A stretch of DNA of 64,000 bases from NCBI GenBank assembly GCA_027452065.1, contig DAIDHC010000110.1:1-64000 (forward strand). The letters are read 5' to 3'. A model generated the notes under the pieces. That model was not told the DNA's origin. It made no database searches and saw only the letters and a program-made list of their open reading frames with translations. Shown piece by piece: positions 25,134 through 33,586 of the stretch. The DNA is from Bryobacterales bacterium. Its GTDB lineage: Bacteria > Acidobacteriota > Terriglobia > Bryobacterales > Bryobacteraceae. The translations under genes were made by a program, and so were the position numbers. The stretch's first letter is position 1. Each line of letters opens with the position of its first letter.

Positions 25134-25286
25134 TTACCCCGGGCGGCGCTGCCCGAACCGCTTTTCCTGCTCGATCACACGGTACTTCGGCGCTTCAATC
25201 AGCCTCCGCAGCCCCGGCAGCCGCCACCAAGCCGCAGTCGCCCCGGCACAGAATAGCGCCACCAGCCCCACCACGACGCCCATCAT
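25134..25286 (-). CDS. Small single-TM protein, putative cbb3 oxidase accessory subunit
   Basis: MMGVVVGLVALFCAGATAAWW...50 aa; 4-nt ATGA overlap with the upstream fused oxidase gene. Confidence 0.55.
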   Translation of the reverse strand: MMGVVVGLVALFCAGATAAWWRLPGLRRLIEAPKYRVIEQEKRFGQRRPG

Positions 25287-27862
25287 CGCCGCACCTCCGC
25301 CACCGCCGCCCCGGCCTTTGGACCTTCGTACACCGACCGCAGATACTCGCCCACCTGGCTTCGCTGCGACGGGCTGAGCTTCTTCCAGGCCGGCATGGAA
25401 GTACCGGGGACTCCGTTCTCCAGGATCTTTTCGATCTCCTCCGTGTCCAGTTGGCGGGCCCGGAAATCGGCTGGCGCTGGGGCCATCGACCCGGCGGCGG
25501 GTCCGTCTCCAAAGCCCTTGGGGCCGTGGCAGGATACGCAATTTTCCTGGAACACCTTCTGCCCCGCCAGCGCCGCCTCGCTGGCTCCGCTCACTTCGAC
25601 TCCCGGGCCGTGCAGAGTCGCCACATACACGGTCAAGGCGCGCAGGTCCGCCGCCGAAAGGTCGCGCCACGCCGGCATCGCCGCTCCGGTTACGCCGCGC
25701 CACAGTGCCTGCCCGATGCGCGGTCCCGTCAGCGCCTCCGCCGTCAGGTTCACCGGAGCCGGCCACAACGCCTTTGCCGCCGGGCCGTCCCCTTTTCCGC
25801 TCTCGCCATGGCACCCGGCGCAGTTGCTCAAAAACAAATTACGTCCCCGCCGGTTCTCTTCCGCCGTTCCCGCCGTTTGGAAGAACGCCGGCCCGTCGAG
25901 GTTTCGATTTGCCTCCGCCGCTGGTCCGGGAACGTCCTGCTCCAGCCGCCGGCCCGCTCCCAGCACTTTCAGGTACGCCAACACCGCCAGCCCTTCTTCC
26001 TTCGGCCGCGCCGCGTCCCCATCGAACAGCCACGGATAAGCGGGCATGACGGAATCCCGCACGACGGCTCGCGGATCGTAAAGATGAGCCAGTTGCCAAT
26101 CGGCCGACCGCACGCCCGCCTCGCGTGCCAGGTCCGGTCCGATGCGCCGTGTCCCCCACTGCTGCGGATATTCATAACGCGTCTCCCACGCCTCGGTCGC
26201 GGGCCCGAACCTCTCCTCGTCCGCCCCCACAAACCGGACCTGCTGCGTGTGGCAATAGCCGCATCCCTCGCGCGCGTAAACATGCCGCCCCTCTTTTTCC
26301 AGCCGTGTCAGCGGCGGCATTACCGGGGGAGCCGTGTTGCCGATCTCCTGTTCCAGGGCCAACGCCGGAAGCACCCCCAGCGCGACAAACGAGAACACGA
26401 AGAACCCAACGCCGCCCACCGACGCTACCACCTGTCCGGCTCCCAGCCAGCGCGCCAGTGCTCCGCCGTCTTCAGTGGCCGGAACCTCGCGCTCCGCTTC
26501 CCCCTCGCTTTCTGTCTCTACTCGCGGCCCCCGTGTCAGGCCCAACCAGAGCAGCACGACCGCGGCGAGCACCGGCGCCCCAGTCAGCGTACGGAAGAGC
26601 CACAGCTCCCGCACCGCCCGCACCGAATCCAGCCACGGCTGCGGCCCGGTCCAAATCACCGCCTCAACCAGCCCCGCTGCTGTCAGGTCCACCACCATCA
26701 GCGCCATTCCGGTGAGCAGCATCCAGTACGACCACGCCACCAGCCGATCGTGATACCGCACCCCGGGCGTGTTCCGCCAGGCGTACGTCAATCCCCCGGC
26801 CGCTAGAAAACTCGCGAACCCGATCATCGCCAGATGCGAATGCCCGATCACCCAGTCGCTGAAATGAAGGAACCGGTTCACCGGCATGACGGCCTGCATC
26901 GACCCCTGCAGACTTACCACCAGATAGAACAAAACACCTGTCCAGACAAATCGCAGCGGCACGTCCGAACCCACCGCGCCCGTGCTGCCCCGCATCGACA
27001 GCAAAAGGTTCGTGACTACCAGCACGACATCGAAGCCCAGAAGCACCGAAGCCCACACCGCACCCATCTGTGCCGACATCGGCACGGAGGAGTAAACGTA
27101 GTGGTGAGTGCCGTTCAGCGGATAAAGAAAGAAGAGGAGCCAGAAACCGACAAGAGACAAGAAGTGGCTGTAGATCGGACGTCCCGTTGCCGCAGGAATC
27201 ACGTAGTAGGCAATCACCAGCGCCAATGGCGTCACGAACAGACCGACCGCGTCGTGAATCCATAAGCCGCTGAAGGCTGCGCCCATCGCCCCGGGAAGCA
27301 ACTCCGGCACGATGTTGCCGACCGGATAGGCGAGCGTAGTGAAAATCAACCCGCCCGCCAGGTACCAACCCGACACATAGAGCTTCCCTGGTCCAAGCCT
27401 CATCAACGGCACCGCGAACTGCGCGCACATCATGACGAAGGCGACGACGACGAAGAAATCGATCACCAGTGGAAACTCGGCCCACTCGAGAGGCTGGCTG
27501 AAGCCTGCGGCCACGAGCGTCCATCCCGGGAGGACGATGACAGCGTTCCACAGCCAGAACAGTGCCCAACCGAGCTTGCGGCTCATCACCGGCCGGTTCG
27601 CCAGTCGCGGCGTCGCATAGTAGGCGAAGGCCAGGAACGCGTTGCCGAGCCAGCCGAAGAAAATTCCCTGGGTGTGGTTGTAGCGGAGCCGCCCCCATGT
27701 CAACCACGGATAGCGCGTCAGGAACTCGGGGTCGTGCATCTTCGTCGCAACGGTGACGCCGAAAAGCACTGAGATCGCCAGAGTCAGCACGGCGGCCAGT
27801 CCGTGCCAGCGCACAAGCTTGTGTTCCACGGCCGGCAACGCGACACTCCGCATCGCCTTCAT
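25283..27862 (-). CDS. Fused cbb3-type cytochrome c oxidase: CcoN + CcoO + two cytochrome c domains
   Basis: CcoN-like TM core ('YNHTQGIFFGWLGNAFLAFAYY', 'LYPLNGTHHYVYSSVP', 'VIGHSHLAMIGF'), CcoO-like 'GCGYCHTQQVRF...RIGPDLAREAG', then 'NCAGCHGESGKGDGPAA' and 'NCVSCHGPKGFGDGPAA'. Confidence 0.93.
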   Translation of the reverse strand: MKAMRSVALPAVEHKLVRWHGLAAVLTLAISVLFGVTVATKMHDPEFLTRYPWLTWGRLRYNHTQGIFFGWLGNAFLAFAYYATPRLANRPVMSRKLGWALFWLWNAVIVLPGWTLVAAGFSQPLEWAEFPLVIDFFVVVAFVMMCAQFAVPLMRLGPGKLYVSGWYLAGGLIFTTLAYPVGNIVPELLPGAMGAAFSGLWIHDAVGLFVTPLALVIAYYVIPAATGRPIYSHFLSLVGFWLLFFLYPLNGTHHYVYSSVPMSAQMGAVWASVLLGFDVVLVVTNLLLSMRGSTGAVGSDVPLRFVWTGVLFYLVVSLQGSMQAVMPVNRFLHFSDWVIGHSHLAMIGFASFLAAGGLTYAWRNTPGVRYHDRLVAWSYWMLLTGMALMVVDLTAAGLVEAVIWTGPQPWLDSVRAVRELWLFRTLTGAPVLAAVVLLWLGLTRGPRVETESEGEAEREVPATEDGGALARWLGAGQVVASVGGVGFFVFSFVALGVLPALALEQEIGNTAPPVMPPLTRLEKEGRHVYAREGCGYCHTQQVRFVGADEERFGPATEAWETRYEYPQQWGTRRIGPDLAREAGVRSADWQLAHLYDPRAVVRDSVMPAYPWLFDGDAARPKEEGLAVLAYLKVLGAGRRLEQDVPGPAAEANRNLDGPAFFQTAGTAEENRRGRNLFLSNCAGCHGESGKGDGPAAKALWPAPVNLTAEALTGPRIGQALWRGVTGAAMPAWRDLSAADLRALTVYVATLHGPGVEVSGASEAALAGQKVFQENCVSCHGPKGFGDGPAAGSMAPAPADFRARQLDTEEIEKILENGVPGTSMPAWKKLSPSQRSQVGEYLRSVYEGPKAGAAVAEVRR

Positions 27863-28239
27863 TCCGCACCCTCCATCCTCTGACCTGGTTCGCTCTGCCA
27901 CCATACGATGTAGTCCGCTATCGCGTCCACATTCGAGGCCGGCACCGGAGCCCCGTAAGCCGCCGCCATCTTTTTCACTTCAGCTACCCACACCTTGCGC
28001 GAGAAACGCGGCTGCATCGTGATGTAGCGCGCCGAGTGGCACGTCTCACAACTAGCCATGAACTGTTCGCGACCTGAGTGCGGCGGCAGAACTGGTTCGT
28101 TATGCGGGAGCACCAGCCGCACAGGTTGTTCGACCTTCTCCTCCGAAGTGCGCTCGCTCCGAGGGTGCATTCGCTCCATCCCGCCTCCGCCACACGCCGT
28201 CAAGCCAAGCAGTACAGCCGTCAGCCATGCGGCCTTCAT
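27859..28239 (-). CDS. sorB: Monoheme cytochrome c lipoprotein, SorB-like subunit of sulfite dehydrogenase
   Basis: Lipobox 'LTAC', heme motif 'CETCHSARYI', directly coupled to SorA-like gene. Confidence 0.78.
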   Translation of the reverse strand: MKAAWLTAVLLGLTACGGGGMERMHPRSERTSEEKVEQPVRLVLPHNEPVLPPHSGREQFMASCETCHSARYITMQPRFSRKVWVAEVKKMAAAYGAPVPASNVDAIADYIVWWQSEPGQRMEGAE

Positions 28240-29441
28240 ACCGCCTCCACGCTTACGCGTTCGATGACATTTCTCATGTACCCGCCGTGATTCCAGTAAC
28301 GCTCACTCTGTCCCTGGCCCGCCTCGTTCGTAGCCCGGGCGCGGATGTCGTAGCTCCCGGCCCGTTCCGGCCGCCATTGCATCCGCCACCGCCGCCATGC
28401 ATATCGGCCTAAGGGTGCGTCCAATTGTGCCTCACCCCAGCTCTTCCCGCCGTCGGTCGAAACCTCAACCGTGCGAATCCCGACGCCGCTGTCCATTGCC
28501 AGCCCTTGCGCCTCGTACACCTGGCCCACGCGCACCCGCTCGGCCGGCTCCGGCTTCACGATCACCGATCTCACGCTGAACTTGTTGATCGGCACCGTGT
28601 CCTCATCCAGCTTTTCCGGGTCCTCGCCCCCGTCCGGTGTGTTGGGAATGCGATACGCTTTCTCCATCCAAAAATTCTTCAGCTTTGTTTCGGCCGTCCT
28701 CACCGTCACGCGCCTCAGCGCCTTCACCCAGTACGTCGCATACCAGCCGGGCACGATCAGTCTCATCGGATAGCCGTTCAGAAGCGGCAGCGCCTCTCCG
28801 TTCATTTCGTACGCGATGATGGTGTCGGGATCGACCACCTTCTCAAGCGGCAGCGATTTCTCGAATGCCGGGGTTGTCACCAGCGGCGCCTCGTCGAGCC
28901 CGCGGAAGCTCGCCTCGATTGCCCCTGCGCCCAATCCGGCGGCTGCCAGCACGTCTTTCATTCGCGCCCCGGTCCACATCGCGTTCCCCATCGCCCCGTG
29001 CCGCCATTGCCCGCCCGGCACCGGTGGGTCAAAATAGCTTCGCGAATTGCCCGAGCACTGATTCACCGCCGCCAGCTTCACCGGCTCGAACTTCCGCTTT
29101 ATATCGTCGATGCTCAGCTCCAGCGGCTTTCTGACCTGGCCCTCCACCGTCAGCCGGAACGCGATCGGGTCGACGTAGGTGGGAATACCGGCCAGGTGCC
29201 AGCGGACGAAAAATGCCTCGTTTGGAGTGAAGTCCTGCTGGAAGTAATGCAGCGGCGTTTCCAGTTGCGGCGGCCGGTCAGTCAGCAGCCTGAGCGGTAC
29301 CTTCCCGGGAAAGCGCATCCAATGGTCCCGCGAGAGATCCATCCCCGCCCCGCCGGCGGGTTGATCGCGCTGGCATGCTGAGAGCGCGAGAGCCGCGGGC
29401 CCCAGCATCAGGAATCCTCGCCGGTCCAAGCTCGTTGACAT
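28236..29441 (-). CDS. sorA: Sulfite oxidase-family molybdenum enzyme (SorA-like), Tat lipoprotein
   Basis: 'DRRGFLMLGPAALALSAC' Tat/lipobox leader; Mo-cysteine context 'AAVNQCSGNSRSYFDPPVPGGQWRHGAMGNAMWTGARMKDVL'; C-terminal dimerisation domain 'GIRTVEVSTDGGKSWGEAQLD'. Confidence 0.9.
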   Translation of the reverse strand: MSTSLDRRGFLMLGPAALALSACQRDQPAGGAGMDLSRDHWMRFPGKVPLRLLTDRPPQLETPLHYFQQDFTPNEAFFVRWHLAGIPTYVDPIAFRLTVEGQVRKPLELSIDDIKRKFEPVKLAAVNQCSGNSRSYFDPPVPGGQWRHGAMGNAMWTGARMKDVLAAAGLGAGAIEASFRGLDEAPLVTTPAFEKSLPLEKVVDPDTIIAYEMNGEALPLLNGYPMRLIVPGWYATYWVKALRRVTVRTAETKLKNFWMEKAYRIPNTPDGGEDPEKLDEDTVPINKFSVRSVIVKPEPAERVRVGQVYEAQGLAMDSGVGIRTVEVSTDGGKSWGEAQLDAPLGRYAWRRWRMQWRPERAGSYDIRARATNEAGQGQSERYWNHGGYMRNVIERVSVEAV

Positions 29442-29651: not shown

Positions 29652-29948
29652 TCACCCGCCCGCAATGGCACCAATCACGAGAAACGGCTCGGCGCCTGTC
29701 GCCACAGGCTCCGGAAGGGCCGAATCCGGCGATTCATGCGATAGGTCTTCCGCGCAAGCGAAAAATCGCACGAACGCACGCCGCTTCCCGGTCACCTGGT
29801 CGCGGATCGTCCCCCGGAGCATCGGATATTGCTCCTCGAGCGCGTCGAGCACGGAGCGCTGCGTCACCGGGCCGTCGATTTCCAGCATCACCTCGCTTCC
29901 GGCCTTTGCCAGAGATCGCAGGTGCGCCGGCAGCATCACCCGGATCAC
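29652..29948 (-). CDS. MoaD/ThiS family sulfur-carrier-like protein
   Basis: Ubiquitin-like length and C-terminal diglycine '...[10 protein letters not shown]'; '[18 protein letters not shown]'. Confidence 0.85.
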
Positions 29949-31060
29949 GGTAGTGTCTGCACCTCTACCGAAAGCACCGCCGGAAGATCTCTGACGATCG
30001 CGGACCAGGTGTCGCCGCTGTCGGCCGATGCGTAGATCTGGCCGCCGGTCGTGCCGAAATAAATGCCGCAGGAATCCATCGAATCGACCGCCATCGCGTC
30101 ACGCAGCACGTTCACGTAACAGTCGCTCTGCGGCAACCCATCGCTCAGTGCCTCCCACTCATCGCCTCCCGTTCGGCTCCTGTAAACGCGCAGCTTGCCC
30201 TCCATCGGGTAGTGCTCGGAGTCGCTCTTGATCGGAACCACATAGATCGTGTTGGGCTCGTGCGCGTGAACGTCGATGACGAAGCCGAAATCGGTCGGCA
30301 GGTTTCCGCTCACCTCCTGCCAGGAGTCGCCCGAATCGTCGCTCCTCATGACGTCCCAGTGCTTTTGCATGTATAACCGGTTCGGCTTCGAGCGGTGCAT
30401 CGCGATCCGGTGTACGCAATGGCCCACCTCGGCTTCCGGATCGGGAATGTATTGAGACTTCAGCCCACGGTTGATCGGCTTCCAGGTCACGCCGGCGTCG
30501 TCGGTCCGGAAGGCTCCGGCCGCCGAAATGGCGATGAAGATCCGCGCTGGATCGTGCGGATCCAAAAGGATCGTATGCAGACACATCCCTCCGGCTCCCG
30601 GCTGCCATCGCGGTCCCGATCCGTGCCCGCGCAAGCCTGCAACCTCCTGCCACGTCTGGCCGCCGTCGGCCGATCGGAAAAGCGCCGCGTCCTCCACTCC
30701 GGCGTACACCGTGTCCGGGTCGGCCAGGCTCGGCTCCAAGTGCCAGACGCGCTTGAACTCCCACGGATGGGCCGTGCCGTCATACCATTGATGGGTTCCC
30801 GGCACGCCATCATAGGTGAATTTATTCCCAACCGGCTCCCATGTCTTGCCGCCGTCGTTTGAGCGCTGAATCAACTGCCCAAACCAGCCGCTGCATTGTG
30901 ACGCATATATCCGGTTCGGATCCGCCGGAGAGCCCTTCATGTGGTAGATCTCCCAGCCCCCGAAGTGTGGTCCGCTGACGTCCCACTTCTCGCGCTTCCC
31001 GTCGGACGTCAGGATAAAGGCGCCCTTCCTCGTCCCCGCCAGTACACGAACGCTGCTCAT
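29945..31060 (-). CDS. WD40/YVTN/BNR-repeat (sialidase/sortilin-like) protein
   Basis: BNR 'S-x-D-x-G-x-T-W' repeats ('[12 protein letters not shown]', '[12 protein letters not shown]', '[11 protein letters not shown]', '[11 protein letters not shown]'); ATGA overlap with MoaD-like gene. Confidence 0.88.
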
Positions 31061-31279: not shown

Positions 31280-33586
31280 TTACGTCAGCCCGGACCGCCG
31301 GAACACCAGTCGTTTCAATGGGTCCACGGCTGCCAGATACAACGCCACCGCCGCCATCAGTCCTCCAATTACCACGGCCGGCAGCGCCGCCATCAACACT
31401 CCCCGGTAGGCCAACCAACCCACCAGCGCCACGTCGGCTGCCGTGCTCGCCAGCATCCACGTGCTCGGACGCGATCTCCACCATGCACCCCGCTCCCGAA
31501 TCAGGTAAACCGTTCCCTGTCCGCCGAATACGAGGGTCAGAAACGCCAGCGTCTGGACCTGGACCGCTGTCAGCCCCAGCGCGTTTCGTCCGGCAAACAC
31601 CACGCTGAGGGAAAACACAACCAGTAACCCGGCCAGCGGCGCCGCCGTCATCACGAGCGGCCGGATCTGCCACCGGTCGGGCCTCCGGGAAAAACCGACC
31701 CGGTCTGTGGCGATCGACATTGTCACAAAGTCGTTGGTGAACAACAACAGCACGATCATGACCGGCGTCACCACCAGCGTTTTCCCCAGCATCACACCCA
31801 GCGTCAGAAAAAGTGCCACCTCGAGGGTCTTGATGATCTTGTTCAACGTGTAGGTCAGCATTCGCTGGTAAATGCGGCGGCTGGTCTCTACCGCTCGCGG
31901 CACGTCGCTCAAGCCCGGGCTGGTCAACACAATGCTCGCCGCCGCCTTGGCCACGTCGGTGGCGTTCGCCACCGCGAAACCCGCCTCGGCCTGTTTCAGC
32001 GCCGCCGCGTCGTTCACGCCATCGCCGGTCATACCCACCACGTGTCCGGCCGCCTGCAGCGCCCGTACCAGCCGGAACTTGTCCTCGGGAAACACACCTG
32101 CGATGAGCCCGCACTCCACCGCTGCCCGCCCTGGATCCGCCCGCAGCCGTTCGGCCTCGCACGCCGCCCCTGCGATACCCACCTGAGCGGCCAGCGTCCT
32201 TGCCGTCGCTAGCACGTCCCCGGTTACCATCAATACGCGGACGCCTAGTTCGCCCAGTCTCGCCACGACGTCCCTCGAGTCCTTCCTTGGCGGGTCGAGC
32301 AGCGCCACGGCTCCCACCGTTCGCAAACCGCCGTCCGGTCCCGCTGCCACCGCCAATACACGGTAACCCTGCTCCGCCAGTTTCCCGGTCTCCGGTGCCA
32401 CCGCTTCCCCTGTCATCGCCGCTATCTTGTCGGGAGCGCCCTTCACCACCCGAAATGTTCGGCCGCCGTTCTCCACCTCCGCCTCGGAGCACTTGGTCGC
32501 CGGATCAAACGGAACAAACTTCCTGACCCGGTATCCCTCCCGCTTAAAGCCCCGCCGCCGGCACTCGGCCAGAATCGCCAGATCAATCGGGTCCTGTGTC
32601 GCCGCCTCAGAAGCCAGCGCCGCCCACAGGATCGCTTCGCCTTCGCCCGTCACTTCCGCCACGCTCAGTTCGTTTTCGGTCAATGTTCCGGTCTTGTCGG
32701 TGGCCAGTACGTCCATTGCAGCGGCTTCCTCAATGGCCGACAGGCGGCTCACCAGCACACCCCGCCGCGCCAACTCCTGCGTGCCCAATGCCGAGGCTAG
32801 CGTGAAGGTTGCCGGCAGAGCCACGGGAATCGATGCCACCAAGAGCATGAGGCAGAACGGCAGCACGTCGGCCCACCCCATCCCCACCCGCAGGGCATAT
32901 CCCATCGCCACCGCCGCCAACACCACGTCGCACGCCACCAGGTACCGCACCACAGTGAAAATCATCGCTTGCAGGTGCCCTGCCGCCTTCGCCTCGCGCA
33001 CCAGTTCCGCCGTCTTGCCGAAATACGTACGGCTGCCGGTCGCCGTCACCACCGCAGTCGCTTCCCCCCGCCGGATCATGCCACCCGCGTACACCACTCC
33101 GCCCGCCTCGGCCTCGACCGGCGACGATTCCCCCGTCACCGCGGAGTGGTCCACCAGTGCTCCGCCGTCCAGAAATCGCGCGTCGGCGGCCGCCATGTCC
33201 CCAACTCGCAGCCGGATGACGTCGCCCGGTACGAGTCCTGCCGCCCCAATCCGCTTCCATTCCCCGTCCCGGCGCACCCTGGCCTGAATCGTCAGCCGCT
33301 GGCGGAGTAGCTTAAGTGCGCGCTGTGCGTGGCTCTCCTGAAAGAAACTGAGCCCGGCGTTGAACGCGAGCAGTCCCCCGATCACCGCTGCCTCCAGCCG
33401 CCGCCCCAGCGCCAGTTCCAGGACCACCGCCGCCTCCAGCATCCACGGCACCGGCGCCCAGAATTTCGCTGCCAGCGTTCTCAGGGGATGCTCCCGCTCT
33501 TCGGCCACTTCGTTGGCCCCATATCGCCGCAGCAGCTCTTCCGCTTCCTTCGTGGTCAGCCCGCTGGCGTCGCCCGCCGTAGCCAT
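31280..33586 (-). CDS. P-type (P3A) plasma-membrane H+-ATPase
   Basis: 'DVLATDKTGTLTENELSVAEV', 'GMTGDGVNDAAALKQAEAGFAVANATDVAKAAASIVLTSPGL'; P3A-like N-terminus 'GLTTKEAEELLRRYGANEV'. Confidence 0.93.
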   Translation of the reverse strand: MATAGDASGLTTKEAEELLRRYGANEVAEEREHPLRTLAAKFWAPVPWMLEAAVVLELALGRRLEAAVIGGLLAFNAGLSFFQESHAQRALKLLRQRLTIQARVRRDGEWKRIGAAGLVPGDVIRLRVGDMAAADARFLDGGALVDHSAVTGESSPVEAEAGGVVYAGGMIRRGEATAVVTATGSRTYFGKTAELVREAKAAGHLQAMIFTVVRYLVACDVVLAAVAMGYALRVGMGWADVLPFCLMLLVASIPVALPATFTLASALGTQELARRGVLVSRLSAIEEAAAMDVLATDKTGTLTENELSVAEVTGEGEAILWAALASEAATQDPIDLAILAECRRRGFKREGYRVRKFVPFDPATKCSEAEVENGGRTFRVVKGAPDKIAAMTGEAVAPETGKLAEQGYRVLAVAAGPDGGLRTVGAVALLDPPRKDSRDVVARLGELGVRVLMVTGDVLATARTLAAQVGIAGAACEAERLRADPGRAAVECGLIAGVFPEDKFRLVRALQAAGHVVGMTGDGVNDAAALKQAEAGFAVANATDVAKAAASIVLTSPGLSDVPRAVETSRRIYQRMLTYTLNKIIKTLEVALFLTLGVMLGKTLVVTPVMIVLLLFTNDFVTMSIATDRVGFSRRPDRWQIRPLVMTAAPLAGLLVVFSLSVVFAGRNALGLTAVQVQTLAFLTLVFGGQGTVYLIRERGAWWRSRPSTWMLASTAADVALVGWLAYRGVLMAALPAVVIGGLMAAVALYLAAVDPLKRLVFRRSGLT

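Follow-up and report, generated by a model that had tools for sequence, protein, structure and literature searches.

Gene content of the cassette

The window is a 64,000-nucleotide stretch of DNA from a Bryobacterales bacterium of the Acidobacteriota (genome G000; assembly GCA_027452065.1, contig DAIDHC010000110.1, positions 1 to 64,000). A run of four genes on its minus strand places a putative sulfite dehydrogenase, SorAB, beside a fused haem-copper oxidase and a small protein. The genes and the parts of the oxidase are as follows.

28236..29441, minus strand: sorA, SorA-type molybdenum sulfite dehydrogenase, 401 amino acids (aa), twin-arginine translocation (Tat) signal and lipobox
27859..28239, minus strand: sorB, SorB-type mono-haem cytochrome c, 126 aa, lipobox; CETCH haem site at 28036-28050
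25283..27862, minus strand: ccoNOP, fused CcoN-CcoO-CcoP-like haem-copper oxidase, 859 aa, 12+1 helices, three c-haem sites
26513..27862, minus strand: CcoN part of the oxidase, residues 1-450; H63, H203, Y247, H253, H254, H341, and H343 conserved; Gln319 at the Glu323 position
25913..26467, minus strand: CcoO/FixO part of the oxidase, membrane anchor and CGYCH haem site (26249-26263)
25283..25885, minus strand: CcoP-like di-haem part of the oxidase, CAGCH (25808-25822) and CVSCH (25526-25540)
25134..25286, minus strand: small fourth gene, 50-aa one-helix protein with a conserved PKY motif

An earlier note had described four minus-strand genes chained by three ATGA overlaps and a fused tri-haem oxidase. 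Direct reading of the open reading frames (ORFs) bore out all of the coordinates. The overlaps lie at 28239-28236 (sorA/sorB), 27862-27859 (sorB/oxidase), and 25286-25283 (oxidase/small gene), and the three CxxCH sites are in a single ORF at residues 534, 681, and 775. A foreign base composition was looked for in the cassette and none was seen; the GC content at third codon positions (0.70-0.82) matches that of the neighbouring genes.

Identity of SorA and SorB

SorA contains the Pfam domains Oxidored_molyb and Mo-co_dimer, which correspond to the sulfite-oxidase fold. Its matches in the Protein Data Bank (PDB) were Starkeya SorA (2blf_A, E = 2e-106), chicken sulfite oxidase (2e-41), nitrate reductase (4e-26), and MsrP (4e-5). 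The NCBIfam scores were 461 bits for SorA, 187 for SorT, 187 for SoxC, and 34 for MsrP. In a tree with chicken sulfite oxidase as the sole outgroup, the window SorA lies inside the SorA clade that includes the Starkeya enzyme (support 100/100). A grouping with MsrP or nitrate reductase, the outcome named earlier as speaking against a SorA identity, was not found, as the scores, the PDB matches, and the tree all favour SorA. Residues R80, H82, and C129 align with R55, H57, and C104 of Starkeya SorA, whose active-site residues we take to be Arg55, His57, Cys104, and Tyr236. In the alignments, the active-site Cys is conserved, and so are the Arg, His, and Tyr that are replaced in the mutant PDB chains 2ca3, 2ca4, and 2c9x.

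SorB has one CxxCH motif, matches the Starkeya SorB chain 2blf_B (E = 1.4e-9), and is encoded directly after sorA. Both proteins score under the cut-offs of the narrow NCBIfam models: SorA has 461.5 bits with the SorA equivalog NF052245 (cut-off 600), and SorB has 76.5 bits with NF052246 (cut-off 93). The window SorA is classed as a member of the wider SorA clade, outside the NF052245 equivalog. By family, PDB, and tree evidence, the two proteins are a bona fide SorAB.

A divergent C-family oxidase

The oxidase contains the Pfam domains COX1, FixO, and two Cytochrome_CBB3. A structure model was of moderate quality (mean predicted local distance difference test score 69, predicted TM-score 0.65). 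It shows twelve helices, a thirteenth as the CcoO anchor, and then small helical cytochrome domains. The best PDB matches are cbb3 CcoN chains, with TM-scores of 0.75-0.80 by target length and 24-26% identity. The six His ligands of CcoN and the equivalent of the active-site Tyr251 are conserved, and all haem and copper ligands are kept. The mono-haem CcoO and di-haem CcoP parts are present as fused domains.

Where canonical cbb3 has Glu323, the window oxidase has Gln319 (window 26906-26908), and Gln is found in 70 of the 73 family rows with a residue there, the loci of which partly overlap. Glu323 is presumably the active-centre Glu of the published descriptions. Authentic cbb3 has a mandatory Glu in its active centre (PMC5492636). 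The NCBIfam scores are far under their cut-offs (ccoN, 174 of 583 bits; CcoNO, 332 of 1080 bits). In the CcoN tree, the family of the window oxidase stands apart from the Pseudomonas and Rhodobacter cbb3 enzymes and beside other Gln-type acidobacterial oxidases. Because of the Gln, the low scores, and the position in the tree, the enzyme is classified as a divergent, cbb3-like C-family oxidase that should work like cbb3 and is not canonical cbb3. The label cbb3, as it was given in the earlier note, thus holds for the CcoN, CcoO, and CcoP-like parts, the ligands, and the Tyr, and it does not hold for the Glu323 position or the NCBIfam cut-offs. The three family loci that do carry Glu include two from the same genome, G446; Gln is nearly universal among the C-family oxidases retrieved from the phylum.

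The small fourth gene

Single-helix proteins of ~43-67 residues that share a motif around PKY are encoded 3' of the oxidase in the window, in G388, G782, G553, and L032, and in many of the TsdA-linked loci described below. The ATGA overlap of the oxidase and the small gene recurs in G388 and G782. The small protein is best read as a conserved fourth subunit. Its gene position is comparable to that of CcoQ, and no similarity to any known family was detected.

Distribution and membrane anchoring

A scan for SorA in GTDB contigs gave 32 relatives, and additional searches were made in Acidobacteriota genomes. One of the 32, the Planctomycetota metagenome-assembled genome L032, has the order sorA-sorB-ccoNOP-small gene. 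The order sorA-sorB-ccoNOP was also found in the Acidobacteriota G388 and G782, which are of the same class as the window genome and a different family, and in G706, in which the contig ends inside ccoN. G553 has SorAB at one contig end and CcoNOP with the small gene at another, and it probably carries the cassette split over two contigs. The synteny that the earlier note had proposed to survey is thus kept across genomes. The other fused cassette oxidases are only 49-59% identical to that of the window, which argues against a recent accident, and the arrangement is judged to be conserved rather than a product of chance.

The cassette is rare. Among 200 genomes of the G388 family, three have a SorA match with E <= 1e-90, and each of these matches lies in a cassette. 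In the order to which the window belongs, the same threshold gave matches in 4 of 250 genomes, namely the window genome, G553, and two without this oxidase. All cassette SorAs fall within one SorA subclade of 11 rows (95/90), which also holds the SorAs of L031 and of G010, G634, and two Chitinophagaceae, the last four having SorAB without this oxidase. An exclusive clade of cassette SorAs was weakly rejected (p = 0.019), because these unlinked SorAs lie among them.

The leader of the window SorA, MSTSLDRRGFLMLGPAALALSAC, has a twin-arginine motif and a lipobox, and the leader of SorB, MKAAWLTAVLLGLTAC, has a lipobox, so that both motifs claimed earlier could be read in the proteins. The SorA lipobox is present in 9 of the 11 rows of the subclade and in none of the 16 rows outside it; these rows are related and do not count as independent events. 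It is not a mark of the cassette, since it is also present in the oxidase-less SorAs of G010, G634, and the Chitinophagaceae. SorB is predicted to be anchored in all five cassettes, by a lipobox in the window, G782, and G706 and by an N-terminal helix in G388 and L032. The SorB of G553 likewise has a lipobox. Membrane tethering of both proteins, as first predicted, therefore stands for SorB in every cassette genome checked and for SorA in most.

Oxidases linked to TsdA

Relatives of the oxidase are found with another electron donor. G001-G003, of the same genus as the window genome, encode a CcoNOP that is ~54% identical, and its neighbours are a solute-binding protein and a DsrE-like Tat protein. 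A di-haem cytochrome is also encoded there in G001 and G003. The label DsrE-like comes from reading of the sequence, with no Pfam match. The di-haem protein is TsdA-like; it has a Pfam SoxA-TsdA domain, matches thiosulfate dehydrogenase in the PDB (3e-49), and has a Cys in EDCMRRS that aligns with TsdA. Such proteins are putative thiosulfate dehydrogenases. A TsdA-like gene lies within a few kilobases in every close SorAB-less member with a fully read flank, and the contigs of G002 and G009 end too early to judge. TsdA was not found in the cassette genomes G000, G388, G782, and G706, the last of which is only 68% complete.

The TsdA-linked clusters (G001-G003, G446, G194, G348, and others) share with the window the oxidase sublineage (52-65% CcoN identity) and mostly the same small PKY protein. 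They differ in that the donor is the TsdA-like cytochrome, usually with the DsrE-like protein, and in that some loci encode CcoN and CcoOP separately. Loci of this kind include L080:4706-9813, L113:7055-12350, L115:4462-8724, L116-L121, and L173-L178, in some of which a solute-binding protein is also encoded. They are a candidate thiosulfate-to-oxygen cluster in the Acidobacteriota. Loci L078 and L079 of G001 are near-identical CcoNOP-TsdA clusters on different contigs of a genome with 8% contamination, and could reflect either a duplication or a mixed bin.

In a concatenated tree of the oxidase, members linked to TsdA or DsrE fall into two clades, each at 100/100, neither of which includes the SorAB-linked members. 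Forcing the window oxidase to group with G001-G003 of its own genus was rejected by the approximately unbiased (AU) test (p = 2.6e-65). From these two results, the oxidase appears to track the donor module and not the species, and this points to lateral transfer or to an old duplication with loss. By this evidence the oxidase belongs to a C-family sublineage in which the sulfur-dehydrogenase module can be exchanged; most members have a TsdA-like (thiosulfate) module, and the window has SorAB (sulfite). The idea of an oxidase dedicated to sulfite, put forward in the earlier note, is supported by the conserved pairing with sorAB. It has to be widened, since the closest relatives pair with TsdA; the dedication appears to be to inorganic sulfur donors generally, with sulfite as one variant.

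A proposed path from sulfite to oxygen

The four genes probably encode a dedicated sulfite-to-oxygen branch in which SorB passes electrons straight to the oxidase. A further link comes from locus L031 (9196-10236), where a single protein combines SorB with two additional haem domains; over 186 residues, these are 44% identical to the CcoP-like part of the oxidase (E = 2e-46). Such a fusion is a Rosetta-stone type link of SorB to the CcoP-like part. The predicted direct transfer of electrons from SorB to the oxidase is well supported by genomics. From the gene content and order, the conserved residues, the synteny, the donor swapping, and the L031 fusion, all of them seen in the sequences, we infer the electron path, its direction, the lack of a shuttle, and the conservation of energy.

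Sulfite would be oxidized to sulfate at the molybdenum centre of SorA, and two electrons would be handed singly to the haem c of SorB. Membrane-anchored SorB would then pass them on to the fused oxidase, where the L031 fusion points to the periplasmic, di-haem CcoP-like part as the entry site. From the CcoP-like haems, electrons would reach the CcoO haem, then haem b, and finally the b3/CuB site, where oxygen would be reduced. The order of these last steps is that of known cbb3 enzymes. Such a path would avoid quinone and the cytochrome b complex, and probably also soluble cytochrome c. Contig C71 of the window genome (L180) encodes cytochrome b, c-type cytochromes, caa3-type CoxB and CtaD, and the assembly factor CtaG in one cluster, so that quinol oxidation probably has its own route. 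This separate chain, together with the lack of detected TsdA in the window genome, fits a dedicated branch. All but one of the characterised sulfite dehydrogenases are located upstream of genes for electron acceptors (PMC3561395).

A stable supercomplex can be proposed more tentatively, and its probability falls somewhat short of even. It would be a sulfite:oxygen complex, independent of quinone and soluble cytochrome, of SorA, lipid- or helix-anchored SorB, single-chain CcoNOP, and a new small subunit, within a C-family lineage that is specialised for inorganic sulfur donors and takes SorAB or TsdA modules interchangeably.

Several points weigh against the branch. The support for it comes from genomics. 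Close relatives of the window SorA in G010, G634, and the two Chitinophagaceae carry SorAB without this oxidase, so SorAB can use another acceptor. The SorAs of L031 and G553 are missing the lipobox, and the contig of L032 may be mis-binned. An origin of the SorAB-linked oxidases as one clade was neither shown nor rejected (p = 0.32).

The role of the cassette could also be mainly the detoxification of sulfite, for example from organosulfur breakdown, with the oxidase as an electron sink of little energy value. This concerns the role and not the path, and so it overlaps with the proposed branch. Sulfite oxidation is often described in this way (PMC3561395, PMC6527743, PMC4760952), but haem-copper oxidases normally conserve energy, and a private oxidase would be needless with a caa3 enzyme present. 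Detoxification as the main role is rather doubtful.

An unlikely alternative is that SorAB donates to a cytochrome c that is soluble or shared, and that the oxidase serves as a general cytochrome c oxidase that is only co-transcribed with sorAB, with no direct contact between them. In other bacteria the partner of SorAB is a diffusible cytochrome c, the Thermus path runs via c550 and c552, and the relatives without this oxidase are in keeping with such a scheme. The conserved, exclusive pairing with SorAB or TsdA, the SorB-di-haem fusion in L031, the anchor of SorB in all five cassettes, and the separate caa3 chain speak against it. A substrate of SorA other than sulfite, to which the missed 600-bit equivalog cut-off could point, is highly improbable given the catalytic Arg, His, Cys, and Tyr, the nesting with the Starkeya enzyme, and the TsdA-like enzyme that takes the place of SorA in sister loci and points to sulfur donors.

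Neighbouring genes

Directly upstream of sorA (29652-31060) are genes for a BNR-repeat protein and a possible MoaD/ThiS-like protein of 98 aa with no Pfam match, which overlap by 4 nucleotides. They were considered as members of the cassette and rejected; a gap of 210 bp separates them from sorA, and the pair is absent beside sorA in the G388 locus. A proton-efflux P-type ATPase of the plasma-membrane type is encoded at 31280-33586 (TIGR01647, score above the cut-off).

Comparison with known systems and significance

Starkeya novella SorAB (PDB 2blf) has the same two subunits, catalytic residues, sorA-sorB order, and mono-haem SorB. It differs in that its SorA is outside the subclade with lipobox leaders, whereas the window has lipoprotein-type leaders and has the oxidase and small protein in the same gene run. 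The cbb3 oxidase of Pseudomonas stutzeri (3mk7) shares the CcoN, CcoO, and di-haem CcoP-like parts, all metal ligands, and the active-site Tyr. The window oxidase differs from it in being one polypeptide, in having Gln at the Glu323 position and no separate anchor for the CcoP-like part, and in its extra small protein; the CcoN structural match shows only ~25% identity. In Thermus thermophilus, sulfite oxidation is also tied to aerobic respiration via c haems, but there c550 and c552 act as carriers to general oxidases, ba3 and caa3, and the oxidase is not encoded beside the dehydrogenase (PMC3561395). Thermus is the case with a full sulfite-to-oxygen path described; for Starkeya SorAB, a test of the link to an oxidase was still awaited in 2013 (PMC3561395). 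A literature search, which covered few subscription journals, found no paper on this gene order or on one oxidase lineage paired with TsdA or SorAB, and nothing relevant on a supercomplex of sulfite dehydrogenase and oxidase.

The route of SorAB electrons to oxygen has hitherto been assumed rather than shown. With the donor and the oxidase in one cassette, it can be tested in a single expression construct. The fused and split forms of the oxidase offer material to study how an oxidase gains a dedicated donor. In the Acidobacteriota, the oxidase sublineage paired with SorAB or TsdA can serve as a genomic marker for possible aerobic oxidation of sulfite or thiosulfate.

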